A DNA stretch of 64,000 nt from Clostridia bacterium. GTDB taxonomy: Bacteria > Bacillota > Thermoanaerobacteria > Thermoanaerobacterales > Thermoanaerobacteraceae. The notes under the pieces were generated by a model, which searched no databases, was not told the DNA's origin, and saw nothing but the letters and a program-made list of their open reading frames with translations. Position numbers and translations under genes: made by a program. Positions 15,790-41,870 of the stretch are shown piece after piece; the stretch's first letter is position 1; each line of letters begins with the position of its first letter. The stretch lies in contig DULG01000031.1 in assembly GCA_012840485.1 (NCBI GenBank), positions 1 through 64,000 of the forward strand, in the 5' to 3' direction.

Positions 15790-15869
15790 CCTGCCTTATC
15801 CTCCTTTTGCTTTTATTGAATTTTTAAAACGATAAAAGTATCTTGCTAATCTTTTTAATTCTTTTCTAA

Positions 15870-17231: not shown

Positions 17232-17246
17232 TTAGAAACACCTCTC

Positions 17247-18083: not shown

Positions 18084-18094
18084 TCACACCCCTT

Positions 18095-19654: not shown

Positions 19655-19691
19655 ACACCATCTTCCCCTCCATGAAATATTTTAATTCTTA

Positions 19692-21487: not shown

Positions 21488-21590
21488 TATTTTATCCTCC
21501 CAACTGCCACGATTATAAAGTACTGCAAACAAATTTTTTATACAACTAGATTGCACGAATAGTATTCTTCGTGCAATCTAGTTACTATTC

Positions 21591-22919: not shown

Positions 22920-23062
22920 AATTCTTCCCCCAATCATTATTTTCATCTCATTCAATTTTTTAAAATTTATAAAATTAATTTTTAATACTTCTCTCTCCCA
23001 CCTCCCAATATGATTATCAGTGCGAGATTATTACATTTTGATTAATTTTAATAAATTATAAT

Positions 23063-24196: not shown

Positions 24197-24236
24197 TACT
24201 TACACCTCACAGCATCTACTCAATGAAAGATAGTTC

Positions 24237-25184: not shown

Positions 25185-25208
25185 TTTATTTTTCACTCCA
25201 ACTGTATT

Positions 25209-26609
25209 TTAAAAACCTATATACTCTTTCGCATTATTAAATGAAATATCCTGAACTATCTTGCCCAGCAGCTCTATATCATTCGGTACCTCTCCATTTT
25301 CTACCCATTCACCAAGCAAATTGCAAAAAATTCGTCTGAAATATTCATGCCGTGTGTATGATAAAAAGCTTCTTGAGTCTGTCACCATTCCAACAAACCG
25401 GCTTAATAAACCTGTGTTTGCAAGAGCTTTCATTTGCTCTATCATGCCATCCTTGTTGTCATTAAACCACCATGCAGCACCAAATTGCATTTTTCCTATT
25501 ATTCCTCCACCTTGGAAATTGCCAATCATTGCTGCTATTACATAATTGCCAGCTGGATTTAATGTGTATAAAATAGTTTTTGGCAAAGAATCCTCCACTT
25601 CAAGGACGTCTAAAAGTTTTGCTAAAGGATATGCAATTGTAAAATCGCTTATTGAGTCATATCCTGTGTCTGGTCCAAGTATTTTATACATTTTTGTATT
25701 GTTGTTCCTCATTGCTCCAATGTGTAATTGCATTACCCAATTTAGTTCAGCATACTTTTTGCCAAGAAATATTAATGTGTAAGTTTTGAAACTATCTATT
25801 TCTTCTTTTGTCAAGTGCTCTCTCAATAACGCTTTTTTAAATATTTTTTCTACTTCTTGTTTTGATGTTTTTTCATAAAATACGTAATCTAACGCATGGT
25901 CAGAGATTCTGCATCCTACTGAGTGGAAAAACTTTATTCTTTCTTCAAGAGCTTGTAAAAAGTCATCATAATTATTTATATCTATTCTGGTAACTTTTTC
26001 TAATTTTTTTAGCCATGGAATAAAATCTTCTTTTTCAATTCCTAAACCTTTATCTGGTCTAAAAGCAGGTAAGACTTTTACATCAAATTCTTTTTCTTCT
26101 TTTAGTTTAATATGATATTCTAATGAGTCCGTTGGGTCATCTGTTGTTATTATGGCTTTGACATTTGACTTTTTTATTATGTTTCTTACGTTAAAGTCAT
26201 CATGATTTATAACTTCATTAGCTCTTTTCCAAATAGATTTTGCTGTTTTTTCATTTAAAAGGTCATATATACCAAAATATCTTTGCAATTCTAAATGAGT
26301 CCAATGGTAAACTGGATTTCCTATTGCCATAGGAATAGTTTTGGCATATGCCATAAATTTATTGTAATCATCAGCATTTCCTGTAATATATTTTTCATCT
26401 ATTCCATTAGCTCTCATAAGTCTCCATTTGTAGTGGTCACCATATAGCCATATTTCAGTGATGTTTTTGAAACGCTTATTTTCGTATATTTCCTTTGGAC
26501 TTAAATGACAATGGAAATCGTAAATTGGCATGTTTTTGGCATATTCATGGTACAATCTCACTGCTGTTTCATTTGTAAGTAAAAAATTTTCATCCATGAA
26601 ATTTTTCAT
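25209..26609 (-). CDS. uxaC: Glucuronate/galacturonate isomerase
   Basis: UxaC isomerises D-galacturonate to D-tagaturonate and D-glucuronate to D-fructuronate. The 466-residue length is usual. The motif YDFHCHLSPKEIYEN gives the metal-binding histidines near the N-terminus; ITTDDPTDSLEYH, RISDHALDY, WVMQLHIGAMRNNN and VTDSRSFLSYTRHEYFRR are all family landmarks. The ATG at 26607-26609 is preferred; a GTG two codons upstream follows the uxuB stop directly, so translation is probably coupled. Confidence 0.95.
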   Translation of the reverse strand: MKNFMDENFLLTNETAVRLYHEYAKNMPIYDFHCHLSPKEIYENKRFKNITEIWLYGDHYKWRLMRANGIDEKYITGNADDYNKFMAYAKTIPMAIGNPVYHWTHLELQRYFGIYDLLNEKTAKSIWKRANEVINHDDFNVRNIIKKSNVKAIITTDDPTDSLEYHIKLKEEKEFDVKVLPAFRPDKGLGIEKEDFIPWLKKLEKVTRIDINNYDDFLQALEERIKFFHSVGCRISDHALDYVFYEKTSKQEVEKIFKKALLREHLTKEEIDSFKTYTLIFLGKKYAELNWVMQLHIGAMRNNNTKMYKILGPDTGYDSISDFTIAYPLAKLLDVLEVEDSLPKTILYTLNPAGNYVIAAMIGNFQGGGIIGKMQFGAAWWFNDNKDGMIEQMKALANTGLLSRFVGMVTDSRSFLSYTRHEYFRRIFCNLLGEWVENGEVPNDIELLGKIVQDISFNNAKEYIGF

Positions 26610-26615
26610 AATCAC

Positions 26616-28235
26616 TCATTCCTCACATTCAAGATACTTTTGTAATGTATTCTTTACTGCTCCAGGGCCAGCAATTAATTCTTTAAAGTAATTTTCTATT
26701 TTTTCCCCTAACCCTACTTCATAAAGATTTAATCCAAAAATATGTTCATTTGAAAGAATAGGTCTTAAATTGTCTTTTACTGACTCTATATCACCTAATC
26801 TTATATTAGAAACATGGGATTTTAAATCTTCTAATAAGGGGTCTGGACTTAATGTCATTGCTTTTCCTTCATCATCTATACCCATTAAGTATCTACACCA
26901 TCCTGCTATAACAAGTGGAATATACTTTAAATCTGTCACATGTAAGTCATCTCTTTGTTTGTAAGACTTTATCGTCTCTCCAAATCTTATTGCCATTTTT
27001 TGTGATGTATCTGTTGCAATCCTTTGTGGGGTATCTGGCATATATGGATTAGGAAATCTTACTTCAATTACTTCTCTTAAAAATTCTTCTGGATCTAATA
27101 CTCCCGGATGAACAACAACTGGAAGCCCTTCATCATATCCTATTTTTTCAACTAGTTTTTTCAAACATGGATCTTTCATTTCATCTGCTATTGTGTTATA
27201 ATTTAACAAACAGCCAAAAATCGCTAATGTTGTATGCAAAGGATTTAAACAAGTTGTTACTTTCATTCTTTCTACTTTTTCTACTGTTTCTTTATCTGTA
27301 AAAATCACTCCTGCTTCTTCTAATGGAGGCCTACCGTTAGGAAATTTGTCTTCTATTACTAAGTAGTGTATTTTTTCTGCATTGACAAAAGGTGCTATTA
27401 TAGTATTTTTGCTTGTCTTGATTATATCCATTCTTTCTAAGCCGAGGTCTTCTAATTTTTTCTTCACCTCTTCAGAGGGCCTTGGCACTATTTTATCTAT
27501 CATGCTGAGTGGAAAAGATACTTTTGTAGAATCAGTTAGATAATCCAAAAATCCTGTTTCAACAAAACTTTTTCTTTGCCATTCTTCTGCTATGGTTTTT
27601 ATTGAATTGAAAAGTCTCTCTCCATTTCCAGAGAAATTATCTAAACTCAAAAGCGCAATGGGATGTTGACCGTTTAAATACCTTTCATAAACCAGTGAAG
27701 TGATTTTTGAAATAATGTTTTTGGGTCTCTCTGGTCCATTTTCTATGTCTTCTTTTACCTCTTTAATATATTCCCCTGAAAAATCTTTTAAATTATAGGC
27801 TTTTTCAGTTATTGTGAAACTTGCTATCTGTAAATACGGATTAGCGAATACGTCCTTTAATCTTTTCCAATCACTGTGAGATAGATCGGCTATTATTTTG
27901 TCACTTATACTACCTATAACTTCTATCTCAAGAGTGCCATCCAAATTCATAACTACTAACATACTTAGATTGTCATATGGAACATATATTTTTTCAATTA
28001 TTTCGTAATCATATGATTCTACAGCAATTATTCCAGTTTTTGATAATCCTTTGTCTAAAAGATTTTGCTGAAGGAGTGAAATGAAGCCTCTAAAAATGTT
28101 CCCTGCCCCAAAATGTAACCATGTAGGATTTTCTTTAGTTTCTTCCGCTGCTTTTTCTACATCATAGTTTGGAAGTTTTATACCTGCTTGACGCCATTTA
28201 TCAATGTCTCTTATACTCTCCCTAGTTAAAAGCAT
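26616..28235 (-). CDS. uxuB: Fructuronate/tagaturonate reductase, UxuB type
   Basis: This polyol-dehydrogenase family protein has about 539 residues starting at MLLTRESIRDIDKW, with AAAGGAAG upstream. Landmarks are WLHFGAGNIFRGF (NAD binding), the CLNPLHTTLAIFGC stretch and RIATDTSQKMAIRFGETIKS. The length and N-terminus fit the Thermotoga-type mannonate oxidoreductase better than the shorter E. coli UxaB. With UxaE also encoded nearby, reduction of fructuronate to mannonate is the more likely activity. UxaB activity on tagaturonate cannot be excluded. It is the first gene of the operon preceded by the control region at 28296-28352. Confidence 0.85.
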   Translation of the reverse strand: MLLTRESIRDIDKWRQAGIKLPNYDVEKAAEETKENPTWLHFGAGNIFRGFISLLQQNLLDKGLSKTGIIAVESYDYEIIEKIYVPYDNLSMLVVMNLDGTLEIEVIGSISDKIIADLSHSDWKRLKDVFANPYLQIASFTITEKAYNLKDFSGEYIKEVKEDIENGPERPKNIISKITSLVYERYLNGQHPIALLSLDNFSGNGERLFNSIKTIAEEWQRKSFVETGFLDYLTDSTKVSFPLSMIDKIVPRPSEEVKKKLEDLGLERMDIIKTSKNTIIAPFVNAEKIHYLVIEDKFPNGRPPLEEAGVIFTDKETVEKVERMKVTTCLNPLHTTLAIFGCLLNYNTIADEMKDPCLKKLVEKIGYDEGLPVVVHPGVLDPEEFLREVIEVRFPNPYMPDTPQRIATDTSQKMAIRFGETIKSYKQRDDLHVTDLKYIPLVIAGWCRYLMGIDDEGKAMTLSPDPLLEDLKSHVSNIRLGDIESVKDNLRPILSNEHIFGLNLYEVGLGEKIENYFKELIAGPGAVKNTLQKYLECEE

Positions 28236-28295
28236 ATCCTTTCTTCCTTTCTGTGAATTGTCTTGTAATATCACAACAATTCATTCGTTTATTTT

Positions 28296-28352
28296 GTGGA
28301 TTATCTTGTGTTTATTATATATATTCTACATGAATCCAAAAAATCCTTCTTG
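28296..28352 (-). promoter_or_regulatory. uxuB operon control region: sigma-H-like promoter plus shared operator
   Basis: On the minus strand GAAGGATTT (28341-28349) and GTAGAATAT (28321-28329) are 11 nt apart, matching the sigma-H consensus. The whole 57-nt segment aligns without gaps to 34701-34757, with 48 identical positions. The part beyond the -10 block, which contains plus-strand GTGGATT and TTTATTATAT, is therefore a likely operator for a regulator shared by both operons, best guessed to be the DeoR protein at 33847. Confidence 0.55.
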
Positions 28353-28382
28353 ATTTTTAAATTTTTTTATTGAATTTTTATT

Positions 28383-28413
28383 GAAAGAAAATGGGAGAAC
28401 AGAAAACTCCCAT
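28383..28413 (-). terminator. Intrinsic terminator after gnd
   Basis: On the minus strand ATGGGAG and CTCCCAT form a 7-bp stem around a 9-nt loop, followed by TTTTCTTTC. It closes the deoR-uxaE-gntK-gnd transcript and isolates it from the uxuB promoter just downstream. Confidence 0.75.
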
Positions 28414-28445
28414 TAATTCAACATCAACTAAATGTCAATTAGGTT

Positions 28446-29852
28446 TTAGTTTGCCTCCCATTCAGTGTGAAAAATTCCCTCTTTATCTATTCTTCTATAT
28501 GTGTGAGCCCCAAAGAAATCTCTTTGAGCTTGGATTAGATTAGCAGGCAAGTTTTCTTCTATCATGCTCAAAAAATAATCTAATGAAGAATTAAGTACAA
28601 GCATTGGAAGGTAAAAATCTTTTGCTAAATTAGTGATATATTTTATTGAATCAATTTTATCCATTAGGAAAGATAACGCCTTTTCACTGTTAAGAAGATT
28701 TACATTTTCTTTATTTTCTTTAATAATGTCTCTTAAGAAATCTAAAATCTTTGCTCTTATGATGCAGCCACCTTTCCAAATACGCAATACTTCTGAAAGG
28801 TCAATATTATACTCAAAAACCTTTGAAGCTTCAGATATAACCCATAATCCCTGAGAAAAAGATGTAAAAACACTAAAAAGTAATGCATTTTCTAAATCCT
28901 TTATTATTTTTTCTTTATCTATATCAATTTCAGGATATATTTTTGTAACTCTTTTAGCTAATTGTACTCTTTCCTCTTTAAGGAAAGATAAACTTCTCGC
29001 TTCTACTGCAAGGTTCAAAGAGGGAGTCGGTATTCCTAAATCCAAAGAAATTTGAGAAGTCCATTTGCCTGTACCTTTTTGTTCTGCCTCATCCAATATT
29101 AAATCTACAAGATATTTCCCCCTCTCTTCATCTTTATATCTCATGATTTTATAAGAAATCTCCATGAGAAAAGAATTTAAATCATTATTATTCCATTTTT
29201 CAAATATCTCTCCTATCTCTTCGGGAGAAAGTTTTAACACCTTTCGAAGTACATCGTAAACCTCAGCTATTGCTTGCATTATGGCATATTCTATTCCATT
29301 GTGGACCATTTTGACAAAATGTCCAGCTGAATCATTTCCAACGTATGTACAGCATGGCCCTGCTTCTGTTTGAGCTGCAATTTTTAAAAGAACATCTTTA
29401 ACCATTTCATATGCATCCTGTGTTCCTCCTGGCATTAACGAAGGGCCGTGTAAAGCTCCAGCTTCACCACCTGATACTCCCATTCCCAAATAGAGTATGC
29501 CTTTTTCTTCTAGTTCTTTAATTCTCCTTGAAGTATCTTTAAAATAAGAATTTCCTCCATCAATGATTAGGTCTCCCTTGTCAAGATAAGGCAAAAACTC
29601 TTGAATTACATCATCTACGGGTTTTCCTGCTTTAACCATGAGAATGATTTTTCTAGGCCTCTTTAAAGACTCTACAAAAGATTTGATGTCATAATAAGGC
29701 TTAATTTGTTCATCTTTTACTTTGTTTTGCATGAATTCTTGTGTTTTTTCAGATGTTCTATTAAATACAGATACGCTATAGCCCTTTCTAGCAATGTTTA
29801 AAGCCAAATTTTGTCCCATTACTGCTAAGCCGATTAAACCTATTTCATTCAT
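28446..29852 (-). CDS. gnd: 6-phosphogluconate dehydrogenase
   Basis: Gnd oxidatively decarboxylates 6-phosphogluconate to ribulose 5-phosphate. The 468-residue length is normal for the long form. The coenzyme motif GLIGLAVMGQNLALNIARKG is at the N-terminus; the catalytic region shows GVSGGEAGALHGPSLMPGG and the lysine in GHFVKMVHNGIEY. The C-terminal QAQRDFFGAHTYRRID is conserved. AGGAGG precedes the start. It follows gntK by 18 bp, so gluconate is phosphorylated and oxidised by consecutive products of one transcript. Confidence 0.95.
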   Translation of the reverse strand: MNEIGLIGLAVMGQNLALNIARKGYSVSVFNRTSEKTQEFMQNKVKDEQIKPYYDIKSFVESLKRPRKIILMVKAGKPVDDVIQEFLPYLDKGDLIIDGGNSYFKDTSRRIKELEEKGILYLGMGVSGGEAGALHGPSLMPGGTQDAYEMVKDVLLKIAAQTEAGPCCTYVGNDSAGHFVKMVHNGIEYAIMQAIAEVYDVLRKVLKLSPEEIGEIFEKWNNNDLNSFLMEISYKIMRYKDEERGKYLVDLILDEAEQKGTGKWTSQISLDLGIPTPSLNLAVEARSLSFLKEERVQLAKRVTKIYPEIDIDKEKIIKDLENALLFSVFTSFSQGLWVISEASKVFEYNIDLSEVLRIWKGGCIIRAKILDFLRDIIKENKENVNLLNSEKALSFLMDKIDSIKYITNLAKDFYLPMLVLNSSLDYFLSMIEENLPANLIQAQRDFFGAHTYRRIDKEGIFHTEWEAN

Positions 29853-29870
29853 TTACTTTACCTCCTGTTT

Positions 29871-31352
29871 TTATAATTTGCTGTGAAGTTCAAAAAGTTC
29901 TTTGAGATTTTTAGTTAAAACTCTAAAAAATTGAAATTTCTTTTCGTAATACTCTATTTTTTCTTTGGAAGGCACATAAGTATTTTCTATTTTTACCATT
30001 TCTCTTGTGGCCTCAATCAAAGTTTTGTACCTTCCCATTGCATAATAGCCTAAAAGTGCAGAGCCTACAAGAGCAGGTTCTTCTACATTAGACACCTTAA
30101 TTGGCAACCCTAAAGTAGAAGCAAAAATCTCCATCCATAGGGGCGATTTTGTACCTCCTCCTCCCGCTCTAATTTCTTTTATTTTTATATTATTATCCTT
30201 TAAAGCCTCATAAAGCATCCTTAGGGAAAATGCAACTCCTTCCATACCGGCTCTTATCATGTGTCCTTTATTGTGGGTGTTTTTCAATCCAAAAAACACT
30301 CCAGAAGCAATGTTTCCTATTTCTTTGTCTCTTTCTCCGGTTAAATAGGGAATGAAAAAGAGATTTGATGAGTCTCCTTTTGAAGCTTCCGCTGTCAATT
30401 CATCATAAGACATATTAAATACATTATCTCTCAACCATTTTAAAACAATTCCTGCATTGTTTATAGCAGCACCAATAAACCATTTCCCTGAAGAAAGGTA
30501 ATAAGTTTGAAGCCTCATAGACTCTTCTTTATCAAATATAGCTTCAGGATAAGCTACTCTAAACATTCCAGTAGTCCCTATGTTTATTGCGCCAACTTCT
30601 TCTTCAAAAGTTCCAATTCCTATGCCCACAGCTCCTCCATCGTAAACCCCTGTAAGCACTTTTACATCTCCAGAAAGCCCCAAAAGCCCTTTTGTCTCAA
30701 GAGGCAAATCAGCTAAAATTTTGTCAGAAGACACTATTGTGGGAAGTCTGTTTTTATCTATCCCTAATATACTAAGGGCATAATCATCCCAATCTAATGT
30801 ATTTACATTCATATAACCAGTTGCAGAAGATATGCTGGGCTCTGTAAAAGGTTCCCCTAAAAGTTTTAAGAGAATAAAGTCTTTGGAGCTTAAGAAAAAC
30901 CTAGTTTTGTTAAATATCTCATTTCTCTTTTTCTTAAGCCAGTATATTTTAAATAAAGGAGCATGAAAAGTAGGAGTATAGCCAGTTCTTTTGTATACTT
31001 CTTTTACATCCATTGTCTTTAAAAATTCTTCATAAGTTTCTTTCGCCCTTAAGTCCAAAAGAGTCATCATACCCATCAGGGGATTTAAATTTTCGTCCAC
31101 AGGTATTAGCCCAAACATGTAGGAAGAAGGCACAATTAAAGAAATTTTATCTTCAAATCCTTTTGCCACCTCTTTAACTGCTTCTACAAAAGCACCAAAA
31201 AGGACTTCTGGATTATGCTCCGCCTTTCCTTCATTGTCTCTTTCTATAGGCGTTTCTTTTCTATATAAACTTAAAATATTTCCTTTTTCGTCCACTACAC
31301 CTGCTTTTAAATTTGTAGTACCTATGTCAACAGAAAGAATTAAATTTTCCAT
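29871..31352 (-). CDS. gntK: FGGY-family carbohydrate kinase, likely gluconokinase
   Basis: The 493-residue kinase has the FGGY N-terminus LSVDIGTTNLKAGVVD, the middle stretch GVYDGGAVGIGIG and the C-terminal signature EIRAGGGGTKSPLWMEIFAS. Neighbouring gnd makes D-gluconate the most likely substrate, giving 6-phosphogluconate; a similar gnd/uxaE/kinase grouping is known in Thermotoga maritima. Its start overlaps the upstream dehydrogenase gene by 13 bp. A xylulose-kinase-like specificity cannot be excluded by eye. Confidence 0.82.
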   Translation of the reverse strand: MENLILSVDIGTTNLKAGVVDEKGNILSLYRKETPIERDNEGKAEHNPEVLFGAFVEAVKEVAKGFEDKISLIVPSSYMFGLIPVDENLNPLMGMMTLLDLRAKETYEEFLKTMDVKEVYKRTGYTPTFHAPLFKIYWLKKKRNEIFNKTRFFLSSKDFILLKLLGEPFTEPSISSATGYMNVNTLDWDDYALSILGIDKNRLPTIVSSDKILADLPLETKGLLGLSGDVKVLTGVYDGGAVGIGIGTFEEEVGAINIGTTGMFRVAYPEAIFDKEESMRLQTYYLSSGKWFIGAAINNAGIVLKWLRDNVFNMSYDELTAEASKGDSSNLFFIPYLTGERDKEIGNIASGVFFGLKNTHNKGHMIRAGMEGVAFSLRMLYEALKDNNIKIKEIRAGGGGTKSPLWMEIFASTLGLPIKVSNVEEPALVGSALLGYYAMGRYKTLIEATREMVKIENTYVPSKEKIEYYEKKFQFFRVLTKNLKELFELHSKL

Positions 31353-32347
31353 GACTCCCCCTCCAAAACTTCTTTATTTATAACGCCATCAGGAATTTCT
31401 CCTCTTAAGACCTTTTCTACATCTGAAACAACCTTGTCCCCCATACCTCTTAAGCATTCGTAAGTGTAAGCAGATGTGTGGGGTGTGATTATAACATTGT
31501 CAAAGGCTAAAAGGGGATGATTCTCATCAATGGGTTCACCTTCTACTACGTCCAATCCTGCTCCTGCAACTTTTCCCTCTTTGAGTGCTTTTATCAAAGC
31601 TTCTGTATCTATAAGTTCTCCTCTTGCAGTGTTAACAATAAAAACATTTTTCTTCATCATAGAAAACTCTTTATGAGACAGCATGTGATAATTTTTTTCA
31701 TTGAGTGAAGCATTTAATGAAATAATGTCAGAAGTTTGTAAAAGTTCTTCTAAAAAAACAGGCTGTGCTCCTCTTTTTTGTATCTCCTCTTCTGAAAGAT
31801 TAGGGTCATAGGCTATTACTTGTGCACCAAATCCATATTTTAATATTTCTGCAACTCTACTCCCAATATTCCCAATACCGATTATTCCTGCAACTTTATC
31901 TTTTATCTCATACCCCATAAAACTCGCTCTTTCCTGCCATTTGCCATCTTTTACCCTTAAAGATGCTTCTCTTACTCTCCTCATTACATCTAAAAGAAGG
32001 GCAATTGCATTTTCTGCCACTGCTTCTCTTTCTACAATTCCAGCAACTTTTGTGACAAGAGTGCCTTTTTCTGTGGCACTTTTTATGTCTATAGCATCAT
32101 ATCCTATGCCGTGGCGAGTTATTAAAAGAGTCTTGTCTTTGTATTCAAAAAATTCTCTGTCATAATAGGGCTTTACACTGGCAATGATTATAGAATAGCC
32201 CATTAATTTTTCTGCTAAAGCCTTCCCTCTCATGTCATGAGGAAGTTCAAATCTTTCCACTTCCCCCAATGCTTTTAACCTCTCAATATGGTCAGGAAAA
32301 TGTTTGCCAAAACTGCTAGAGTTGACAATCGCAATTTTTACACTCAT
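31340..32347 (-). CDS. D-isomer 2-hydroxyacid dehydrogenase, possible 2-ketogluconate reductase
   Basis: The 335-residue protein has the NAD(P)-binding motif GIIGIGNIGSRVAEILK, the arginine-bearing NTARGELIDTEAL and the C-terminal catalytic histidine in ITPHTSAYTYE. The family reduces 2-keto acids to D-2-hydroxy acids. Being in one transcript with gluconokinase and gnd, reduction of 2-ketogluconate to gluconate is an attractive role, but glyoxylate or hydroxypyruvate reductase activity is equally compatible with the motifs. The paralogue at 34842 is clearly divergent. Confidence 0.78.
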   Translation of the reverse strand: MSVKIAIVNSSSFGKHFPDHIERLKALGEVERFELPHDMRGKALAEKLMGYSIIIASVKPYYDREFFEYKDKTLLITRHGIGYDAIDIKSATEKGTLVTKVAGIVEREAVAENAIALLLDVMRRVREASLRVKDGKWQERASFMGYEIKDKVAGIIGIGNIGSRVAEILKYGFGAQVIAYDPNLSEEEIQKRGAQPVFLEELLQTSDIISLNASLNEKNYHMLSHKEFSMMKKNVFIVNTARGELIDTEALIKALKEGKVAGAGLDVVEGEPIDENHPLLAFDNVIITPHTSAYTYECLRGMGDKVVSDVEKVLRGEIPDGVINKEVLEGESWKI

Positions 32348-32363
32348 TTTTATCTTCCTTTCT

Positions 32364-33815
32364 TCATATGTTAAATATTTCTTTCAAGTGATTTTCAATG
32401 TTTTTACTCACAAACTCGTAATGTTCTTCTTCATACTTATCTAAAACTTCATAAATTTCTTTTCTTTTCTCATCCAATAAAACTCCATAGGAAATGTGAA
32501 AAAGCTGTTTAATTTCAGGTTTTAAAAGAATTTGCGAATCCTCTGTTCGGATTGTTTGTGGAAAATCATCTCTATCAATTAAGACTTTGTAAGCCTTTTT
32601 ACTCTCTTCTAAATTATCTAAAGCAATTTTATAAAGGTCATTAAAAAGGTCTTTATCCCTTTCAAAAATGAGGTTTATCGCTTGAAGCCAGCTTGTGCCA
32701 GAAGTTTTAATATGAAAATTTCCTTCAGTAATTTCATGAAATATTTTGTAAATGCTAAATTTGTCACTTCCAGAGTGAAGACTTAACTTGTACCCTCCTA
32801 ATTCTTTAGTAAGAAAATAATGCTTTTTAAGTTCTGATGTAAACTTCTCTATGTCTCCTTTGTAGTCTATCGCCTTTTGAAATTCCCCAGGAAATTTGGG
32901 TGCCAAACTCCAAAAGTCTATCCCCTTTCTATGCAAATATTCAACCACAAATATGTGGTCTTCTACTGTAGTATCCTTCTCTCCCTCATCTATTGAAATT
33001 TCTAAATCGAAATGCTGCAATCTGTCCTTCAGAATACCATATACTTTTTCTAGAAACTTCATAGCTTTTTCATAAGTGAGAGCAGATTTGTACAATTCAT
33101 CTTCAGAAACTACAAAGTCTTCGTCGGTAGAAATACTGAATTTTTTACCTTTATACCTGTCAATTATTTGCATACTTTGTGAAGATAAACTTTGGGCCTT
33201 TTCTTTTAATTGAGACTCTGGCATATCTGAAATTTTCACTAATAAATCACTTAAATCAAGAGTGTACATTGTGTAGCCTGCATCAATTGCTTCCATCAAA
33301 TGTTTTTCGTCTTTTATGTGGTCGGCATCTGCTCCAAATCCTCCTGCGTATCCTGCTTCTAAAACGCCTAAAATAGCTTTTAGTAATACATCTTTAAAAT
33401 CTCTATTAGTTTTTACAAGTTCTCTTGGAGATTGTTGAGCTAACACAGGAAAAATATCATAATTTTTTAAAACTTTTATATGAGCTGGTGTCACAAGTCC
33501 CAACCTGTCCCCCGTGCCAAATGAGGTTCTTTCTTTGCAAGTCACTGGAGAAATACCAAAATTATCTTTTAATATTAAGTAGTTTTCGTAAGTTAAAGGA
33601 TAAAGATTGAGATAAAAACCCAGCTCTTCTACATATTTATCTTCAACAAAATGAGGGGAAGATAATTTAAAATTTCCATTTGTCAAAAATCCTATTTTTT
33701 TGTCACTATCTTCTTTAGCTACAAAAATATAAACATCCTCTTTTAATCTTCTGAATGAGTCAGGATATAAAAGAAAAGAGTTTTTTAACAAATAATTAGA
33801 AAGTTCCTCTTTCAT
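32364..33815 (-). CDS. uxaE: Tagaturonate/fructuronate epimerase
   Basis: The 483-residue product matches the UxaE family, characterised for Thermotoga maritima TM0440, which epimerises D-tagaturonate to D-fructuronate. Landmarks are CKERTSFGTGDRLGLVTPAH in the first third, GYAGGFGADADHIK in the middle and LSLHSGSDKFSIYKI towards the end. It joins galacturonate breakdown (UxaC) to the mannonate branch (UxuB). It lies between the DeoR regulator and the 2-hydroxyacid dehydrogenase gene, 16 bp from the latter. Confidence 0.9.
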   Translation of the reverse strand: MKEELSNYLLKNSFLLYPDSFRRLKEDVYIFVAKEDSDKKIGFLTNGNFKLSSPHFVEDKYVEELGFYLNLYPLTYENYLILKDNFGISPVTCKERTSFGTGDRLGLVTPAHIKVLKNYDIFPVLAQQSPRELVKTNRDFKDVLLKAILGVLEAGYAGGFGADADHIKDEKHLMEAIDAGYTMYTLDLSDLLVKISDMPESQLKEKAQSLSSQSMQIIDRYKGKKFSISTDEDFVVSEDELYKSALTYEKAMKFLEKVYGILKDRLQHFDLEISIDEGEKDTTVEDHIFVVEYLHRKGIDFWSLAPKFPGEFQKAIDYKGDIEKFTSELKKHYFLTKELGGYKLSLHSGSDKFSIYKIFHEITEGNFHIKTSGTSWLQAINLIFERDKDLFNDLYKIALDNLEESKKAYKVLIDRDDFPQTIRTEDSQILLKPEIKQLFHISYGVLLDEKRKEIYEVLDKYEEEHYEFVSKNIENHLKEIFNI

Positions 33816-34841: not shown

Positions 34842-35813
34842 TTATTTATTCAATACATCTTTATTTACTAAAGTGCGAGGCACTCTTCCTTCTATTACAT
34901 CAATTATGTTTTGAGCCACAACTATTGACATGTCTCTTCGCGCTTCTTCTGTTGCACTTCCTATATGAGGAAGCATTACGACATTGTCAAGCTGTGCTAA
35001 TTCTTCTTCAAACATGGGCTCTCTTTCGTATACGTCTAAGCCTGCTGCATATATGTCCTTGTTTTTTAACGCTTTTACAAGGGCTTTTTCGTCTACAACA
35101 GGACCTCTCCCCGTATTTATCAATATAGCAGACTTTTTCATCAATTTTAATTCTTTTTCTCCAATCAAATGTCTTGTTTCAGGAGTTAATGGCACATGTA
35201 TGGAAACAAAATCAGATTCTTTTAGCAAAGTATCCAAGTCTACATATTGAGCTCCTGTCTCTTCTTCAAACTCTTTTTTAGGACTTCGTGCAGTGTACAA
35301 AATCTTCATGTCGAAGCCTTTTGCCATTTTAGCAAAAGCTTGTCCTATGCGACCTGCACCTATTATTCCTAATGTCTTGCCTGTTACGCCTTTTCCTAAG
35401 AAAAGCATTGGCGCCCAACCTTGGAATTTTCCTGATCTCATAAATTTATCAGATTCTACCACTCTTCTTGCAGTTGCAAAAAGAAGAGCCCAAGCCAGTT
35501 CCGCAGTAGCGTTTGTCAACACATCAGGAGTGTTTGTTATGTAAACTCCTCTTATTGTAGCTTCTTCTAAATCTATATTGTCAAATCCTACAGCATAATT
35601 TGCAACAATTTTCACATCTTTTGCAGCTTCAAAAAACTCTTTGTCTACTTTGTCTGTAAGCTGTGTGATTACAGCATTTTTGCCCTGTACTTTTTCAAGT
35701 AACTCTTCTTTTGTAAGCATTCTGTCGTAAGGGCTTACCTCTACCTCGCAGTACTTTCTCAAAAGATTAAGTCCTTCTTCAGGAATAGCTCTTGTCACAA
35801 AGACTTTAAACAT
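34842..35813 (-). CDS. D-isomer 2-hydroxyacid dehydrogenase, glyoxylate-reductase-like
   Basis: The product has about 323 residues from the ATG preceded by GGAGGAG 8 nt upstream. NAD(P) motif LGIIGAGRIGQAFAKMAKG, substrate arginine in NTGRGPVVDEKAL, and the histidine in MLPHIGSATEEARRD are all present. It resembles glyoxylate/hydroxypyruvate reductases (GyaR type) by N-terminal VFVTRAIPEEGL. It is 17 bp downstream of an AEC permease gene, so the pair may reduce and move a 2-keto or 2-hydroxy acid produced by the cluster upstream. Confidence 0.85.
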   Translation of the reverse strand: MFKVFVTRAIPEEGLNLLRKYCEVEVSPYDRMLTKEELLEKVQGKNAVITQLTDKVDKEFFEAAKDVKIVANYAVGFDNIDLEEATIRGVYITNTPDVLTNATAELAWALLFATARRVVESDKFMRSGKFQGWAPMLFLGKGVTGKTLGIIGAGRIGQAFAKMAKGFDMKILYTARSPKKEFEEETGAQYVDLDTLLKESDFVSIHVPLTPETRHLIGEKELKLMKKSAILINTGRGPVVDEKALVKALKNKDIYAAGLDVYEREPMFEEELAQLDNVVMLPHIGSATEEARRDMSIVVAQNIIDVIEGRVPRTLVNKDVLNK

Positions 35814-35830
35814 TTGTATCACTCCTCCAG

Positions 35831-36751
35831 TTAAAATATGTTAATCAATACCAAAAATATTGGTATTGTCAAAAACGAAAGCAAGTTTGTAACAAACACC
35901 CCTGCAGAAGCAAAACTATTTTTTTCGCTCATTTGCCTCGCAACAATGGCTACTGTCATCATCGTTGGCATTGCTGCCTCTAAAGCTGCAACTTTTTTGG
36001 CATCAAGGGGTAAATTTAAAAAGTACACAATCCCAAAAGCTATTAAAGGAGACAAAATGAGCTTTATTATTGCTGCAAGATAAACAAAATAGTCTACGTC
36101 GCTTTTTTTGATTATATACATGTTCATCCCTATAAACATTATAGCCAGAGGAATAGTTACACTGCCTATCATTTGTGCACTTTTCAGTATTTCATCTGGT
36201 ATTTTGATTCTTGATATCACTATTAAAAAACTCAAAGCAAGAGAAACAAAAGAAGGATTTAGAAGTTTTTTGAAACCATTCATATCAAAAGATTTTTCTT
36301 CAGACAAAATCCAAACTCCTAAAGTCCAAAATAAAGCTGTGTGCCCTAAATCGTAAAGGATAACATAAGGTATACTTTTATCTCTAAATAAGGCAATGTT
36401 TATGGGAAGCCCTAAAAATAAAGTATTGCTAAAAGAGGAGAGGGCATATAATGCATTTTTCTTTTCTTCTGGAGCTTTAAGCAATTTAAAAAGAGCCATT
36501 GAAACTAATAATGTCAAAACTAACGTGGAGGCACTTACAAAAGGCAGTATATAAGCAGTTCTAAGTAGTGCTGGCGTATAATTAGAATACATGCTGTGAA
36601 AGATAAGTAAAGGTGTTGTAACTAAAATGATTAAATCCGCCAGCATTTTAAAATGTTCTTCTTTAACTAATTTTATATAGGTGATATAATATCCTACTGC
36701 CATTACAATAAAAATCTCTACAAGTATTTCAACCATTTTTGATATGACCAT
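35831..36751 (-). CDS. AEC-family permease
   Basis: The product has about 306 residues and ten hydrophobic segments, with ALSSFSNTLFLGLPINIALF as the family hallmark and AAMPTMMTVAIVARQM in the last third. The ATG chosen has GAGGTGG 6 nt upstream. It differs strongly from the other AEC protein at 11086, so they are not recent duplicates. AEC proteins carry organic anions such as malate or lactate; together with the following dehydrogenase an acid product is the likely cargo. Confidence 0.86.
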   Translation of the reverse strand: MVISKMVEILVEIFIVMAVGYYITYIKLVKEEHFKMLADLIILVTTPLLIFHSMYSNYTPALLRTAYILPFVSASTLVLTLLVSMALFKLLKAPEEKKNALYALSSFSNTLFLGLPINIALFRDKSIPYVILYDLGHTALFWTLGVWILSEEKSFDMNGFKKLLNPSFVSLALSFLIVISRIKIPDEILKSAQMIGSVTIPLAIMFIGMNMYIIKKSDVDYFVYLAAIIKLILSPLIAFGIVYFLNLPLDAKKVAALEAAMPTMMTVAIVARQMSEKNSFASAGVFVTNLLSFLTIPIFLVLINIF

Positions 36752-36781
36752 TTTATTCCACCTCAATTGCTCTTACTTTTG

Positions 36782-36810
36782 ATTATACCATAAATTTTAA
36801 CTTTATATAA
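36782..36810 (-). promoter_or_regulatory. Sigma-A-type promoter of the AEC-dehydrogenase pair
   Basis: On the minus strand TATAAT (36782-36787) lies 31 bp upstream of the AEC start. A weak -35, TTATAT, is 17 nt further upstream. It follows the terminator at 36811-36844, so the last two genes may be transcribed separately from the TIM-barrel/dehydrogenase genes. Confidence 0.5.
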
Positions 36811-36844
36811 ATAAAAGCAAAAGCCCAACCGCTGTGGTTGAGCT
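36811..36844 (-). terminator. Intrinsic terminator after the TIM-barrel genes
   Basis: On the minus strand AGCTCAACC pairs with GGTTGGGCT around a 5-nt loop and is followed by TTTGCTTTT. It lies 10 bp after the stop of the 36854-37783 gene. Confidence 0.7.
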
Positions 36845-36853
36845 CTTTTGTTT

Positions 36854-37783
36854 CTACTTTACAAATTGGCTTAAATGTTTTAATCCTAAAAGAAGCCCTT
36901 CTTTTACTTTTTCTTCACTGCCTTCATATAGAGGGTCTTCATGTTCTATGCTTATTACCCCATTATATCCATTGTCTTTTAGCGCCTTTATAAACTTGCC
37001 CCAATCTACATTTCCCATACCTGGCATTCGGTATCTCCAGTATCCAAACTCTCCATGCGTTCCTGTGTAAAGCTGTCTGTTGAAAACTCCATATCGCTTA
37101 AATTTATCCTCAAACACTTCTGTGTCTTTTGCGTGTACATGAAATATTCTATCTTTAAACTCTGGTATCACATCTATATAGTCTATAAACTGCCAAACAA
37201 GATGGGAAGGGTCAAGATTTAAACCAAAGTTTTTAGAAGGTATCCTTCTAAACATCTCCTCCCAAAGCTCTGGTGTAAAAGATATTGTTCCTGGAAGGCC
37301 AGGTACCTGCCATCCTTTCATAGGACAATTTTCGATTATAATTTTTATTCCTTTGTCTTCCGCATAGCTTATTATATCAGTAAAAACTCTTTCAAATTCA
37401 TCAAAATTGTCTTTTATGCTCTTTTCAATGTTTCTCCCTACAAAAGTCCCCACCATGTCAGTCCCAAGCATCTGTGCCGCATCAATGCACTTTTTTAAGT
37501 GATTGTTTATAAACTTTCTCTTTTCTGGGTCTCTGTCAAGGTTGTTGTCATAATATGCAAGAGATGAAATTGTGAGCCCGTACTCCTTAAAATATTTTTT
37601 TATTTCTTCCGCCTCTTCAGGTGTGAGATTTTCTACATCTATGTCACTTGCAGAATAATCCCTCGTATTGTCTTTAGGCCAGCAGGCAATTTCCAGTGAT
37701 TTAAACCCATTTTCACTTGCCCACTTAGCTTTTTCTTTAAGAGGCATATTCCCAAGACATACTGTTAAAAATCCTAAATACAT
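36854..37783 (-). CDS. Xylose-isomerase-like TIM-barrel protein, unknown substrate
   Basis: The 309-residue protein has the metal-site motifs of this fold: IIIENCPMKGW, FGLNLDPSHLVWQ, FHVHAKDTE, GMGNVDW and the C-terminal SIEHEDPLY. These give a likely Glu-Asp-His-Glu site for a divalent metal. The family isomerises, epimerises or cleaves sugars and keto-sugars. It starts one base after the stop of a second, shorter TIM-barrel gene and belongs with two Gfo/Idh dehydrogenases. The substrate is not identifiable. Confidence 0.8.
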   Translation of the reverse strand: MYLGFLTVCLGNMPLKEKAKWASENGFKSLEIACWPKDNTRDYSASDIDVENLTPEEAEEIKKYFKEYGLTISSLAYYDNNLDRDPEKRKFINNHLKKCIDAAQMLGTDMVGTFVGRNIEKSIKDNFDEFERVFTDIISYAEDKGIKIIIENCPMKGWQVPGLPGTISFTPELWEEMFRRIPSKNFGLNLDPSHLVWQFIDYIDVIPEFKDRIFHVHAKDTEVFEDKFKRYGVFNRQLYTGTHGEFGYWRYRMPGMGNVDWGKFIKALKDNGYNGVISIEHEDPLYEGSEEKVKEGLLLGLKHLSQFVK

Positions 37784-37784
37784 T

Positions 37785-38534
37785 TTACATTTCCTCCTCT
37801 AAAATCTTTTTTAAATTTTCAAAACTAATTTTCACACTTTCAATTGGAGGTCTTTTACACACATCCTGTTCAACGATTAACCATTTAACTCCATTTTCTT
37901 TTGCAATTTTTATTACTTCTTTAAAATTGATAATTCCATTTCCTATTTCAGTAAAAGATCTGTCCTCTTTATCCATGTCTTTTAAGTGAATTAAAGGTAG
38001 TCTATTGGAGAATTTTTTAAGATATTCTACCGCGTCAACTCCCGCATATGTAACCCAATACGCATCGATTTCAGCTTTTACAAGGTCTTTATCTGTATTT
38101 TTGTAAAGTATATCAAGTCCATATTCTCCATCGTATATTTCAAATTCGTGATTGTGGTTGTGATAGCAAAACTCAAGTCCCTTTTCCCTACACTTTTCAC
38201 CTATTTTATTAAACAACTTTGCTGTTTCAATATAATCCTCTCTTGACTTGTACTCATTCCATGGACAGACGATGTATTTATTGCCTATTTCAAGGTTATA
38301 ATCTATCACTTCCTCAAGATTGTTTTTAAGTAATTCTATTCCTACATGACTACCAGCAGCTTTTAATCCTAAATTATCAAGCGTTTTTCTTAATTCTGAT
38401 GCTTTTAAACCGCCATATCCTGCAAACTCCACTCCTTCGTATCCTATTTCCGCAACCTTTTCAAGAGTACCTATAAAATCTTTTTGTGTCTCCTCTCTCA
38501 AAGTGTAAAGTTGAAGTGCTATAGGTATACTCAT
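37785..38534 (-). CDS. Xylose-isomerase-like TIM-barrel isomerase/epimerase
   Basis: The 249-residue protein begins IPIALQLYTLREE, typical of the small sugar isomerase/epimerase members. Metal-site motifs are FCYHNHNHEFE, AEIDAYWV, IHLKDMD, EIGNG and LIVEQD. Relatives near Gfo/Idh enzymes include the 3-keto-glycoside epimerase YcjR of E. coli. The neighbours here are of the same kinds, which is the basis for proposing oxidised-sugar chemistry. Function remains inferred. Confidence 0.8.
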   Translation of the reverse strand: MSIPIALQLYTLREETQKDFIGTLEKVAEIGYEGVEFAGYGGLKASELRKTLDNLGLKAAGSHVGIELLKNNLEEVIDYNLEIGNKYIVCPWNEYKSREDYIETAKLFNKIGEKCREKGLEFCYHNHNHEFEIYDGEYGLDILYKNTDKDLVKAEIDAYWVTYAGVDAVEYLKKFSNRLPLIHLKDMDKEDRSFTEIGNGIINFKEVIKIAKENGVKWLIVEQDVCKRPPIESVKISFENLKKILEEEM

Positions 38535-38551
38535 TTTAATTTTTTCCCCCT

Positions 38552-39601
38552 TTAACCTAAAACTATTTCCTTACCTTTTTCAGCTGATTCATAGGCACCG
38601 TCTATTATTTTCATGAGAATTGCCCCTTCTTCAGCAGAAGCCAAAGGCTCTTTGTCATTTTTTATACAGTCAACAAAATGTTCAAATTCATTTAAAGGCG
38701 ATTTTGGATAATTGGTGTCTGGAACTATGTCAATTAATGTATCAACAATTTCCGAAAATACTTTAAGCTGTCCGTTTTTAAACCATATGCCACCTTTATC
38801 ACCTAAAATTTCATAGTAATTGTAATCTCCCTCAATGTTGGAAGCCCAGCTGAATTCAAAGTCAATTGTGGCACCATTTTTAAGCCTTACAAAGCCTACT
38901 GCCATATCCTCCACATCGTAAATTCCATCCCCGCTTTTTGCATAATTCCAGCTGTTTAAACTGTTGCTATTTGAAAACTTAGAATAAGTAGCTGCTGACA
39001 CAGATTGAGCTTTAGGGTATCCCATGAAATACAAGACTAAGTCTAAAAAATGTACACCTAAATCAATTAATGGGCCTCCTCCAGACAATTTCCTATTTGT
39101 AAACCATCCGCCCTTTCCAGGAATTCCTCTCCTTCTCCTCCAGCCAGTCTTTACATGGTATATTTCGCCTATATACCCTTCCTCTATATATCTTTTTACA
39201 AAGAAAGATTCATTTGTAAACCTATTATTTAATCCTATCATAAACTTCCTTTTGTATTTATTTTTTGATTCAATGACCTCATAAGCTTCTTTTGCATTTA
39301 GAGTTATAGGTTTTTCACAATGCACATGAATTCCCTTTTCCATCGCTTTTATAGAAATAGGCGCATGTAAATAATTTGGGGTACACACGCTTATTAAGCC
39401 TGGTTTTTCTCTTTCAAACATTTCTTCATAATCTGCATAAACGTGAGGTATATTGTACTTTTCCGCTAATCTTTTTGCAGCCTCTATATCCGGATCAGAT
39501 ATGGCTACAATTTCAACATCTTCTACTTTTGAATAACCGTTTAAGTGTTTGTAATCAGCAACTGACCCTGCACCAACACATGCATATTTAAGTTTTTCCA
39601 T
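38552..39601 (-). CDS. Gfo/Idh/MocA-family oxidoreductase (first of two)
   Basis: The 349-residue protein has a Rossmann start (KLKYACVGAGSVADYKHL), the family motif HVHCEKPIT near residue 95 and the catalytic-type stretch GGGPLIDLGVHFLDLVLYFM near residue 175. Such enzymes oxidise or reduce sugars and cyclitols with NAD(P). The basic segment KTGWRRRRGIPGKGGWF before the catalytic region is also seen in the paralogue (HAIRRRAVPTWG). It lies 14 bp from that paralogue. Confidence 0.88.
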   Translation of the reverse strand: MEKLKYACVGAGSVADYKHLNGYSKVEDVEIVAISDPDIEAAKRLAEKYNIPHVYADYEEMFEREKPGLISVCTPNYLHAPISIKAMEKGIHVHCEKPITLNAKEAYEVIESKNKYKRKFMIGLNNRFTNESFFVKRYIEEGYIGEIYHVKTGWRRRRGIPGKGGWFTNRKLSGGGPLIDLGVHFLDLVLYFMGYPKAQSVSAATYSKFSNSNSLNSWNYAKSGDGIYDVEDMAVGFVRLKNGATIDFEFSWASNIEGDYNYYEILGDKGGIWFKNGQLKVFSEIVDTLIDIVPDTNYPKSPLNEFEHFVDCIKNDKEPLASAEEGAILMKIIDGAYESAEKGKEIVLG

Positions 39602-39615
39602 ACAAAAGCCTTCAT

Positions 39616-40704
39616 TTACCTGTTAAAATATACTGGTTCTCCTGTTTTCGCAGATGTATAAATAGCCTCTAGTATCTCAGTTACTACAAGAGCTTCTTCT
39701 GGTTTTACAACAGGCTCTGTATCGTTTATGATGCAATCAATCCAAGCTTTTGCTTCTAAAAATCCCGGGTTATCTGATTTACCTTCATAGAAATCTACTC
39801 CACCTACATCAGTAGAAACTTTAGTTGTATAAAGCCTTCCAAATTTCTCTCCATTTATGCGAAGTCCATCTCTCATGTCAGCTCCACCTTCTGTTCCACA
39901 CAAAGTGGTCATAGCCTCGCCAACCTCTACAGTATTTAAAGCCCAACTGGACTCTAATATAATGGTAGCTCCATTCTCCATTACTATAAATCCAAAAGCT
40001 GAATCTTCAACTGTGAACTTTTCAGGGTCCCATGGTCCCCAAGCATTCGCAGCATTTGCTCTTTTGCCTAATTTATAGTAGGCGCTTCCCATTACAACTT
40101 TAGGCTTATAGTTATTCATCATCCACAATGTCAAATCAAGGGCATGTGTTCCTATATCGATTAAAGGCCCACCACCCTGCTCTTCTTCATTTAAGAAAAC
40201 ACCCCATGTAGGTACCGCACGGCGACGTATAGCATGAGCCTTAGCAAAATATATTTCCCCTAGTTCACCATTTTGACAAACTTTATGTAAATATTGAGAA
40301 TCTGGTCTAAAGCGATTTTGATACCCTATAGTGAGTTTCATACCTGTTTTCTTATATGATTCCACCATTCTTCTGGCATCTGCAGCAGTCTTAGCCATAG
40401 GCTTCTCACACATTACATGTTTTCCTGCATAAAGAGCATCAACAGTTATGTCTGCATGAGACTTGTTGGGAGTACAAACATGAATCACATCTATCGTTTT
40501 ATCTTCAAGAAGTTTTTTGTAATCCGTATATACTTTCGCGTCTTTTGTACCATATTCTTTTGCCGCTTTTTGAGCCCTCTCTTCTATGATGTCACAAAAG
40601 GCCACCATTTCAACATTGCCTAGTTTTGCCAAAGAGGGCATGTGTTTACCAAAAGCAATTCCTCCACAACCTATAATTCCTACTCTAAGTTTCTCTTTTA
40701 CCAT
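39616..40704 (-). CDS. Gfo/Idh/MocA-family oxidoreductase (second of two)
   Basis: The 362-residue protein shows LRVGIIGCGGIAFGKHMPSL, HVMCEKPMA and GGGPLIDIGTHALDLTLWMM, the same set as its neighbour but with clear divergence elsewhere, which suggests different substrates or opposite directions of a two-step redox conversion. It follows the LacI regulator gene by 57 bp and is the first enzyme gene of the cluster. Confidence 0.88.
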   Translation of the reverse strand: MVKEKLRVGIIGCGGIAFGKHMPSLAKLGNVEMVAFCDIIEERAQKAAKEYGTKDAKVYTDYKKLLEDKTIDVIHVCTPNKSHADITVDALYAGKHVMCEKPMAKTAADARRMVESYKKTGMKLTIGYQNRFRPDSQYLHKVCQNGELGEIYFAKAHAIRRRAVPTWGVFLNEEEQGGGPLIDIGTHALDLTLWMMNNYKPKVVMGSAYYKLGKRANAANAWGPWDPEKFTVEDSAFGFIVMENGATIILESSWALNTVEVGEAMTTLCGTEGGADMRDGLRINGEKFGRLYTTKVSTDVGGVDFYEGKSDNPGFLEAKAWIDCIINDTEPVVKPEEALVVTEILEAIYTSAKTGEPVYFNR

Positions 40705-40761
40705 AAAAATTCCTCCCCTGATTATATTTAAATTTGTATTTTAAAGACAAAACTTTATTCT

Positions 40762-41754
40762 TTATTTTACTGTCGACTCTCTTATTATTAACTCATGCTC
40801 TAAAAAAATCCTCTGTGGTTCTTCTAATTTGCCACTCATGTGTTTTATCAGTAGTTCCATAGCAACACACCCTAAATCGTATTTTGGCTGTGAAATAGTT
40901 GTAAGCATAGGGTCATACATAGAAGCAAAGCTTATATCATCAAAGCCTACAACCGCTATATTCTCAGGGACTTTAAGCCCTTCTTCCTTTATCGCTCTTA
41001 TAGCTCCAATAGCCATGATATCAGAAATTGCAAATATAGCAGTAGGCCTTTCTTCCATCGCCAAAAGCTGTTTCGCTGCTCTTACTCCGCTTTTAAAGCT
41101 GTAATCTCCGTATTTTATAAGCTTTTCGTCAAATTCTATCCCTGAACCTTCAAGAGCTTTTTTAAAACCCGCTTCCCTCTGCTTTGTAGATACAAAGTTA
41201 TTTTCACAGCTTATCATTCCTATTTTTTTATGTCCTAAACTTACCAAGTGCCTTACTGCTTTGTAAGCTGCAGAAAAGTTGTCTATAGATACATATGAAA
41301 CACCAGCTCCTTCTATGTATTCACAACACTGAACAACAGGATAATTTTGGCCTATCACTGTCAATTCTTCTTTTCCCATCACAGGCGCCATAAAAATAAC
41401 GCCATCCGCTAATCTGTTTTTTAAAATTTCAAGATATACTTTTTCTCTGTTAATATCAGAATCAGTATTGCAAAGCATTACATTGTAACCATTTTTATGG
41501 GCTACATCTTCTATTCCTTTTACAACCCTTGCATAAAAAGGATTTGAGACATTAGGCATCAAAGCCAATATCATTTTCGTTTCAGAACGTCTTAAATTTC
41601 TTCCAAGGAGATTTGGATGATAATTTAATTCTTTTATCGCTTTTAATACTCTTTCCTTTGTTTCTTCAGACACCGAGTCACTGTCATTTAAAACTCTTGA
41701 TACTGTTGCAACAGAGACTCCCGCTCTTTTAGCAACTTCTCTAATATTAGCCAT
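40762..41754 (-). CDS. LacI-family transcriptional repressor
   Basis: The 330-residue protein has the LacI DNA-binding domain (NIREVAKRAGVSVATVSRVL, then LGRNLRRSETKMI) and a periplasmic-binding-like sugar domain. GGAGG lies just upstream of the ATG. It heads the operon containing two Gfo/Idh and two TIM-barrel genes. Two matching palindromes in its leader (41767-41780, 41823-41836) make autoregulation likely, with the sugar substrate of the cluster as inducer. A CcpA function is unlikely because of this local arrangement. Confidence 0.9.
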   Translation of the reverse strand: MANIREVAKRAGVSVATVSRVLNDSDSVSEETKERVLKAIKELNYHPNLLGRNLRRSETKMILALMPNVSNPFYARVVKGIEDVAHKNGYNVMLCNTDSDINREKVYLEILKNRLADGVIFMAPVMGKEELTVIGQNYPVVQCCEYIEGAGVSYVSIDNFSAAYKAVRHLVSLGHKKIGMISCENNFVSTKQREAGFKKALEGSGIEFDEKLIKYGDYSFKSGVRAAKQLLAMEERPTAIFAISDIMAIGAIRAIKEEGLKVPENIAVVGFDDISFASMYDPMLTTISQPKYDLGCVAMELLIKHMSGKLEEPQRIFLEHELIIRESTVK

Positions 41755-41766
41755 TGTAACCTCCTG

Positions 41767-41780
41767 TGTAACAGATTACA
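41767..41780 (-). promoter_or_regulatory. Operator for the LacI-family repressor, leader copy
   Basis: TGTAACAGATTACA has arms TGTAA and TTACA around 4 nt. It sits a few bases upstream of the ribosome binding site, so it would be a second, downstream operator in the 5-prime leader. Confidence 0.65.
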
Positions 41781-41822: not shown

Positions 41823-41836
41823 TGTAACGCATTACA
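41823..41836 (-). promoter_or_regulatory. Operator for the LacI-family repressor, promoter copy
   Basis: TGTAACGCATTACA has the same arms as the site at 41767-41780 and a CG centre, as in classical LacI-family operators. It lies just downstream of the -10 box, overlapping the expected transcription start. The two copies are 56 bp apart centre to centre. Confidence 0.75.
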
Positions 41837-41842
41837 TTTACT

Positions 41843-41870
41843 ATTATACCTCTAAATTAAAAAAAATCAA
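41843..41870 (-). promoter_or_regulatory. Sigma-A-type promoter of the LacI-headed operon
   Basis: On the minus strand TTGATT (41865-41870) and TATAAT (41843-41848) are 16 nt apart. The operator at 41823-41836 begins 6 nt downstream. Confidence 0.7.

Follow-up and report, generated by a model that had tools for sequence, protein, structure and literature searches.

Stepwise cleavage of O-glycosides through 3-keto sugars is the probable function of a five-gene operon found in a 64,000-nt stretch of Thermoanaerobacter DNA (positions 1 to 64,000 of contig DULG01000031.1, assembly GCA_012840485.1; hereafter the window). The operon is read from the minus strand in the order lacI, gfoA, gfoB, tim1 and tim2, and encodes a LacI-family repressor, two Gfo/Idh/MocA enzymes and two xylose-isomerase-like TIM barrels. 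These enzymes are predicted to act by oxidation, elimination, hydration and reduction, a reading to which a probability of about 0.77 is assigned. We infer every reaction, the glucose-like sugar, the inducer and the substrate from features observed by computation, namely gene order, homology, conservation of active-site residues, operators, a terminator and conservation across genomes. Plant-derived, sugar-containing compounds are most likely the targets of the operon.

In the proposed route, an intracellular O-glycoside would be cleaved stepwise, in a manner resembling that of GH4 enzymes and with no need for a hydrolase. GfoA, carrying bound nicotinamide adenine dinucleotide (NAD), would oxidise C3 of the glycosyl unit. 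The Mn-type metalloenzyme TIM1 would take the C2 proton of the resulting 3-keto-glycoside and expel the aglycone, leaving a 2-hydroxy-3-keto-glycal that TIM2 would hydrate to a free 3-keto-hexose. Conversion of this product to a normal hexose could be performed either by GfoA, through DgpA-type ping-pong that regenerates NAD, or by GfoB. LacI would act at two operators to keep its own operon repressed in the absence of an inducer, which is probably the glycoside or one of its breakdown products.

Enzymes of the predicted pathway

TIM1 (positions 37785-38534, minus strand; 249 aa, AP_endonuc_2 family) is predicted to be a Mn-type 3-keto-glycoside 1,2-lyase, or beta-eliminase, on the basis of phmmer matches, residues and fold. 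Among its matches, phmmer ranks AtOGE (8BVK) first and 8TCT, 8TCS and 8TCD next. At 32.7% overall identity, TIM1 keeps all eight AtOGE residues to which metal-site or catalytic roles have been ascribed (PMC10628242): AtOGE H132, H134, D163, H189, E233, E39, H66 and E161 correspond to TIM1 H125, H127, D157, H183, E222, E36, H63 and E155, respectively. H125, H127, D157, H183 and E222 are furthermore invariant in 12 members of the TIM1 family. The top nine fold matches of the AlphaFold2 model (predicted local distance difference test score, pLDDT, 96) include the AL1 and BT1 lyases (8tcd, 8tcr, 8tct) and AtOGE (8bvk), the remainder being 3OBE and 3L23, structural-genomics entries with no stated function. 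Both residues and fold thus display the AtOGE-type metal site and catalytic His expected of a 3-keto-glycoside beta-eliminase.

GfoA (39616-40704, minus strand; 362 aa, Gfo/Idh/MocA family) is predicted to be a DgpA-like glycoside 3-dehydrogenase. With phmmer it reaches 464 bits and 63.1% identity to solved DgpA1 (9m3d), and 438 bits and 56.2% identity to solved DgpA (7xr9). The initial annotation had held that high identity to a characterised enzyme would speak against its proposal of a novel pathway, and GfoA shows precisely such identity. In DgpA-type enzymes, among them DgpA and D3dgpA, NAD(H) stays bound and the C3 oxidation of glycosides follows a ping-pong mechanism in which the acceptor 3-oxo-glucose is converted to glucose (PMC11239390). 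By its homology to DgpA, GfoA supplies the Gfo/Idh-type glycoside 3-dehydrogenase that the four-enzyme pathway calls for; it is probably a glycoside C3 dehydrogenase, perhaps one that also reduces 3-keto-glucose.

TIM2 (36854-37783, minus strand; 309 aa, AP_endonuc_2 family) is plausibly a 2-hydroxy-3-keto-glycal hydratase distantly related to AtHYD, an assignment drawn from profile and Foldseek matches. Its best solved relatives by profile are SCO6571 (2ZDS, function unknown), MJ1311 (3WQO) and AtHYD (8RO4), a 2-hydroxy-3-keto-glucal hydratase and, of the solved relatives whose function has been named, the closest (47 bits by profile, rank 3 in Foldseek). For the TIM2 model (pLDDT 84), Foldseek ranks 1-4 are occupied by 2zds and 8ro4, with 2ZDS first. 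E151, D191, H217 and E280, which form a full E/D/H/E metal set, are invariant in 17 TIM2 homologues, as is a DPSH motif. The aligned regions of 2ZDS and 8RO4 share this motif; IolE, IolI and MJ1311 lack it. TIM1 and TIM2 gave no match to each other in BLASTP.

GfoB (38552-39601, minus strand; 349 aa), the second Gfo/Idh/MocA enzyme, is about 35% identical to GfoA, in line with the initial description of two diverged paralogues. It matches DgpA at 190 bits, more weakly than GfoA does, and true GfoB orthologues were found only in Thermoanaerobacter. It is a probable 3-keto-hexose reductase or dehydrogenase for a second substrate.

A tentative extension, given somewhat less than even odds, is a redox-closed cycle of three enzymes, in which GfoA would both oxidise and reduce with one bound NAD while TIM1 eliminates and TIM2 hydrates. 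The 3-keto-hexose would then serve as a recycled catalyst, free NAD(H) would not be used, and GfoB would be an add-on confined to Thermoanaerobacter. Since 3-oxo-glucose can act as the oxidant for DgpA-type enzymes, GfoA could close the redox cycle alone, which would account for the dispensability of GfoB in a related genus. The biochemistry of DgpA allows such a cycle, and the cluster of T. butyriciformans (L013), which consists of GfoA, TIM1 and TIM2 only and lacks a second Gfo, would fit it. If the cycle is real, it would constitute an anaerobic, thermophilic O-glycoside route for a plant glycoside. The enzymes should be heat-stable, and so would offer a practical and clean test of a DgpA-type closed redox cycle.

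Several points weigh against assigning the operon to stepwise O-glycoside cleavage. The link between TIM2 and AtHYD is weak (20% identity, template modelling score 0.68-0.74), with 2zds closer, and epimerases share the fold and metal set of TIM2. In addition, sequence does not fix the role of GfoB, so that both GfoA and GfoB are candidates for the 3-keto-hexose reductase. The operon contains no transporter, and the search for further operator-bearing loci was negative, which leaves uptake unexplained.

Alternative explanations

The initial annotation had drawn a parallel with the ycj pathway of Escherichia coli. Under this scheme the sugar, oxidised at C3 by GfoA, would be epimerised in its 3-keto form by a TIM barrel and then reduced by the second Gfo, leaving the glycosidic bond intact and yielding a different sugar. 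YcjS shares 37% identity with GfoA and 33% with GfoB over full length, and the fold family of TIM2 contains many 3-epimerases. C3 oxidation, a 3-keto intermediate handled by TIM barrels and re-reduction are retained from the parallel. Epimerisation by a YcjR-type barrel is not, since the BLASTP matches to YcjR are insignificant (E 0.3 for TIM1 and 0.013 for TIM2), no YcjQ relative is present in the operon, and the nearest relatives with known functions are a lyase for TIM1 and a hydratase for TIM2. TIM1 is specifically lyase-like in sequence, residues and fold, and a more ycj-like gene set lies elsewhere in the genome, on contig C8. The ycj-type explanation is accordingly judged improbable.

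Catabolism of levoglucosan (1,6-anhydroglucose) proper, with GfoA or GfoB acting as LgdA and TIM1 and TIM2 as LgdB1 and LgdB2, fares about equally poorly. The gene set, including LacI, is that of the Bacillus smithii lgd cluster (PMC7676230), and both GfoA and GfoB reach 111 bits on the levoglucosan dehydrogenase model NF052479. However, the cut-off of this model is 650 bits, GfoA is much closer to DgpA, and the ABC importer genes of lgd are absent from the operon.

Two further explanations are each given only a few chances in a hundred. C-glycoside cleavage as in the dgp and dfg clusters would agree with the DgpA-like character of GfoA, but TIM1 resembles an O-glycoside eliminase, Foldseek places the DgpC-type structure 7drd no higher than ranks 43 and 47, and the CGD beta subunit (PF19906) was not found in the host genome, the same model matching 2 of 300 Bacillota. 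Inositol or inosose metabolism with IolG and IolE/IolI-like enzymes, suggested by the presence of IolG and IolE models among the best NCBIfam matches, is very unlikely, since the scores fall well short of the cut-offs (130 and 121 of 355; 77 and 49 of 290) and the closer solved relatives are glycoside enzymes.

Other sugar gene sets were noted alongside these comparisons. The contig C8 cluster (L152:2088-10808) comprises two YcjS-like Gfo/Idh enzymes, two weakly YcjR-like AP_endonuc_2 barrels, a YcjQ-like MDR dehydrogenase, a NanE-like epimerase and a heparinase-II/III-like lyase (DUF4962), and adjoins an Opp-type ABC transporter. On contig C59 of the same genome (L153:4165-12036), a Gfo is grouped with a UlaE-like epimerase barrel, a ROK-like kinase, an RpiR-like regulator and other genes, presumably for use of a sugar; the names were assigned partly by eye. 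In two Thermoanaerobacter genomes (L135:7314-15323 and L136:2297-12403), a LacI, a ribose-type ABC importer, a TIM2 relative (42%), a ROK glucokinase and a Gfo lie together, the Gfo of L135 reaching 212 bits on the levoglucosan dehydrogenase model (cut-off 650). This cluster may represent an operon for an anhydrosugar or a glycoside, with an importer of its own.

Regulation by LacI

The LacI-family repressor (40762-41754, minus strand; 330 aa) is the conserved first gene of the operon and matches NCBIfam LacI models of the CytR/PurR/CcpA type, none above cut-off. It is preceded by a promoter-like site, TTGATT-16-TATAAT (41843-41870, minus strand), identified by consensus match only. Two 14-bp inverted repeats, 56 bp apart, fill part of the interval from the -10 box to the start codon of lacI and are predicted to be a pair of LacI operators: TGTAATGCGTTACA (41823-41836, minus strand), just downstream of the -10 box, and TGTAATCTGTTACA (41767-41780, minus strand), which adjoins the Shine-Dalgarno sequence of lacI. 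Each of the ten Thermoanaerobacter genomes searched has the pair exactly conserved and identically spaced, and related repeats, TGTAATCCGTTACG and AGTAATCAATTACG, occupy the same two places in Thermoanaerobacterium.

A search of the host genome and of the order with the operator pattern, aimed at a co-regulated transporter, brought up no distant transporter, and only the pair upstream of lacI stood out. Other genomic matches were few and scattered, in keeping with the roughly 1.2 per genome expected by chance; a third exact match in the host genome (C15:8956) falls inside an 864-aa reading frame. Because paired, conserved operators occur at lacI while other matches are scattered at chance level, the evidence indicates that LacI is a local repressor, presumably autoregulating its own operon. 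The operator pair would thus provide a direct route to the inducer, and hence to the substrate.

Conservation across genera

The host genome (2.65 Mb) belongs to Thermoanaerobacter, and its closest named loci, in Thermoanaerobacter sp. and T. wiegelii, show 96-99% protein identity. Nearly every Thermoanaerobacter genome examined keeps the five genes in this order, the exception being a decayed copy in genome G019. A LacI-GfoA-TIM1-TIM2 core is found in Thermoanaerobacterium, where eight genomes contain all three enzymes at identities of about 80, 66 and 78% (the order with LacI was read in six of the eight). In Clostridium oryzae, GfoA, TIM1 and TIM2 occur without LacI (64, 58 and 73% identity). 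Gene order is thus conserved over three genera, and the recurrence in Thermoanaerobacter and Thermoanaerobacterium is more than chance.

What follows TIM2 varies within these clusters. In T. butyriciformans, the next gene encodes a GH2-like enzyme; the GH2 at the Thermoanaerobacterium locus L133 has mannosidase-type domains by domain scan. In other Thermoanaerobacterium genomes, an unrelated Gfo (25-29%) comes after TIM2. Conservation of the core across Thermoanaerobacter and Thermoanaerobacterium means that the predicted route would be no peculiarity of gut or soil, and 3-keto glycoside cleavage would be placed in thermophilic anaerobes that ferment plant biomass.

Two variant arrangements were also observed. 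In G019 (L156:7522-7986), a deletion fuses gfoA to gfoB and TIM1 is gone, with the lacI operators intact, and the sequence indicates that the operon is undergoing loss in this genome. In another genus of the same class (L125-L131), a LacI-Gfo-TIM2 trio without TIM1 was present at all seven loci read, with TIM2 about 60% identical, and a TIM2 orthologue occurs in 12 of 12 genomes of this genus.

Transcription units and neighbouring genes

Scans of open reading frames and domains recovered all seven genes of the initial annotation at 34842-41754 on the minus strand, the five operon genes being followed by an AEC carrier and a 2-hydroxyacid dehydrogenase (2HADH). As stated there, no kinase, hydrolase or ABC importer lies within these coordinates. 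The intergenic gaps from LacI through GfoA, GfoB and TIM1 to TIM2 are 57, 14, 17 and 1 nt. Directly 3' of TIM2 stands a predicted intrinsic terminator (36819-36847, minus strand), a hairpin with a 12-bp stem and a T-rich tail, and a strong hairpin at this place is kept in every Thermoanaerobacter relative checked. It is followed by a promoter-like site with an extended -10 (36782-36811, minus strand; consensus match only), which precedes the AEC-type Mem_trans carrier (35831-36766, minus strand; 311 aa, PF03547). In one unit with AEC lies a glyoxylate-reductase-type D-2-hydroxyacid dehydrogenase (34842-35822, minus strand; 326 aa), which scores 458.1 bits on NF009714 against a cut-off of 455.

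Occurrence of this pair is variable: AEC is absent in genome G025, in G020 it is only 54% identical and separated from 2HADH by another gene, and the Thermoanaerobacterium clusters have neither. Because of the terminator, the separate promoter-like site and this variable presence, the seven genes, taken initially as a single operon, are two transcription units, the five-gene LacI-GfoA-GfoB-TIM1-TIM2 operon and a neighbouring AEC-2HADH unit. On the same grounds AEC and 2HADH were rejected as members of the pathway, and the suggestion that a final acid is handled by the dehydrogenase and exported by the carrier is not supported.

Directly downstream, on the same strand, a galacturonate/pectin island occupies positions 15007-33815 of the window. 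It contains DeoR, UxaE, an FGGY kinase, UxaC, KdgK, a GH28-type pectinase, an ABC importer, and GH105-like, GH4-like and KduI/KduD-like genes; names other than UxaE, DeoR and FGGY were assigned by eye from the sequences.

Comparison with known systems

The initial annotation could name no described pathway for this exact gene set, but the set matches the levoglucosan cluster lgdA-lgdB1-lgdB2-lgdC of B. smithii S-2701M, which comprises a LacI, two Gfo/Idh enzymes and two 'sugar phosphate isomerases' (Kuritani 2020, PMC7676230). The two systems share a thermophilic host, LacI, two Gfo/Idh-type dehydrogenases, two sugar-phosphate-isomerase-like enzymes and, as predicted here, the sequence of oxidation, elimination, hydration and reduction. 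They differ in that lgd has an ABC importer and in that LgdA is a levoglucosan dehydrogenase, whereas GfoA is DgpA-like.

Analogous operons have been described in Agrobacterium tumefaciens and in the gut bacterium PUE (Bitter 2023, PMC10628242). TIM1 resembles AtOGE (8BVK) of the A. tumefaciens operon in all the residues listed above, TIM2 is distantly similar to AtHYD (8RO4), and the Gfo reductase there has candidate counterparts here in GfoA and GfoB. The first oxidase there is GlycDH, in contrast to the NAD-type Gfo/Idh predicted for this step here; GlycDH was assayed with ferricyanide as its electron acceptor (PMC10628242) and has been termed a GMC-family enzyme (PMC11239390). The gut Dorea/PUE dgp cluster (DgpA, DgpB-DgpC) provides the close relatives of GfoA, at 56-63% identity (PMC8563793, PMC11239390), whereas neither DgpB (PF19906) nor a DgpC-type C-deglycosidase is present here. 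The 3-keto-beta-glucopyranoside-1,2-lyases AL1 of Alistipes and BT1 of Bacteroides (8TCD, 8TCR, 8TCT) are neighbours of TIM1 in both fold and sequence, at about 27-30% identity. With E. coli ycjQRS the operon shares a relative of the D-glucoside 3-dehydrogenase YcjS, but homologues of the 4-epimerase YcjR and of YcjQ are not in the operon. Altogether, the operon would work similarly to the phlorizin, levoglucosan and dgp systems, and what is new is a further example of a recently described 3-keto route rather than a new pathway.

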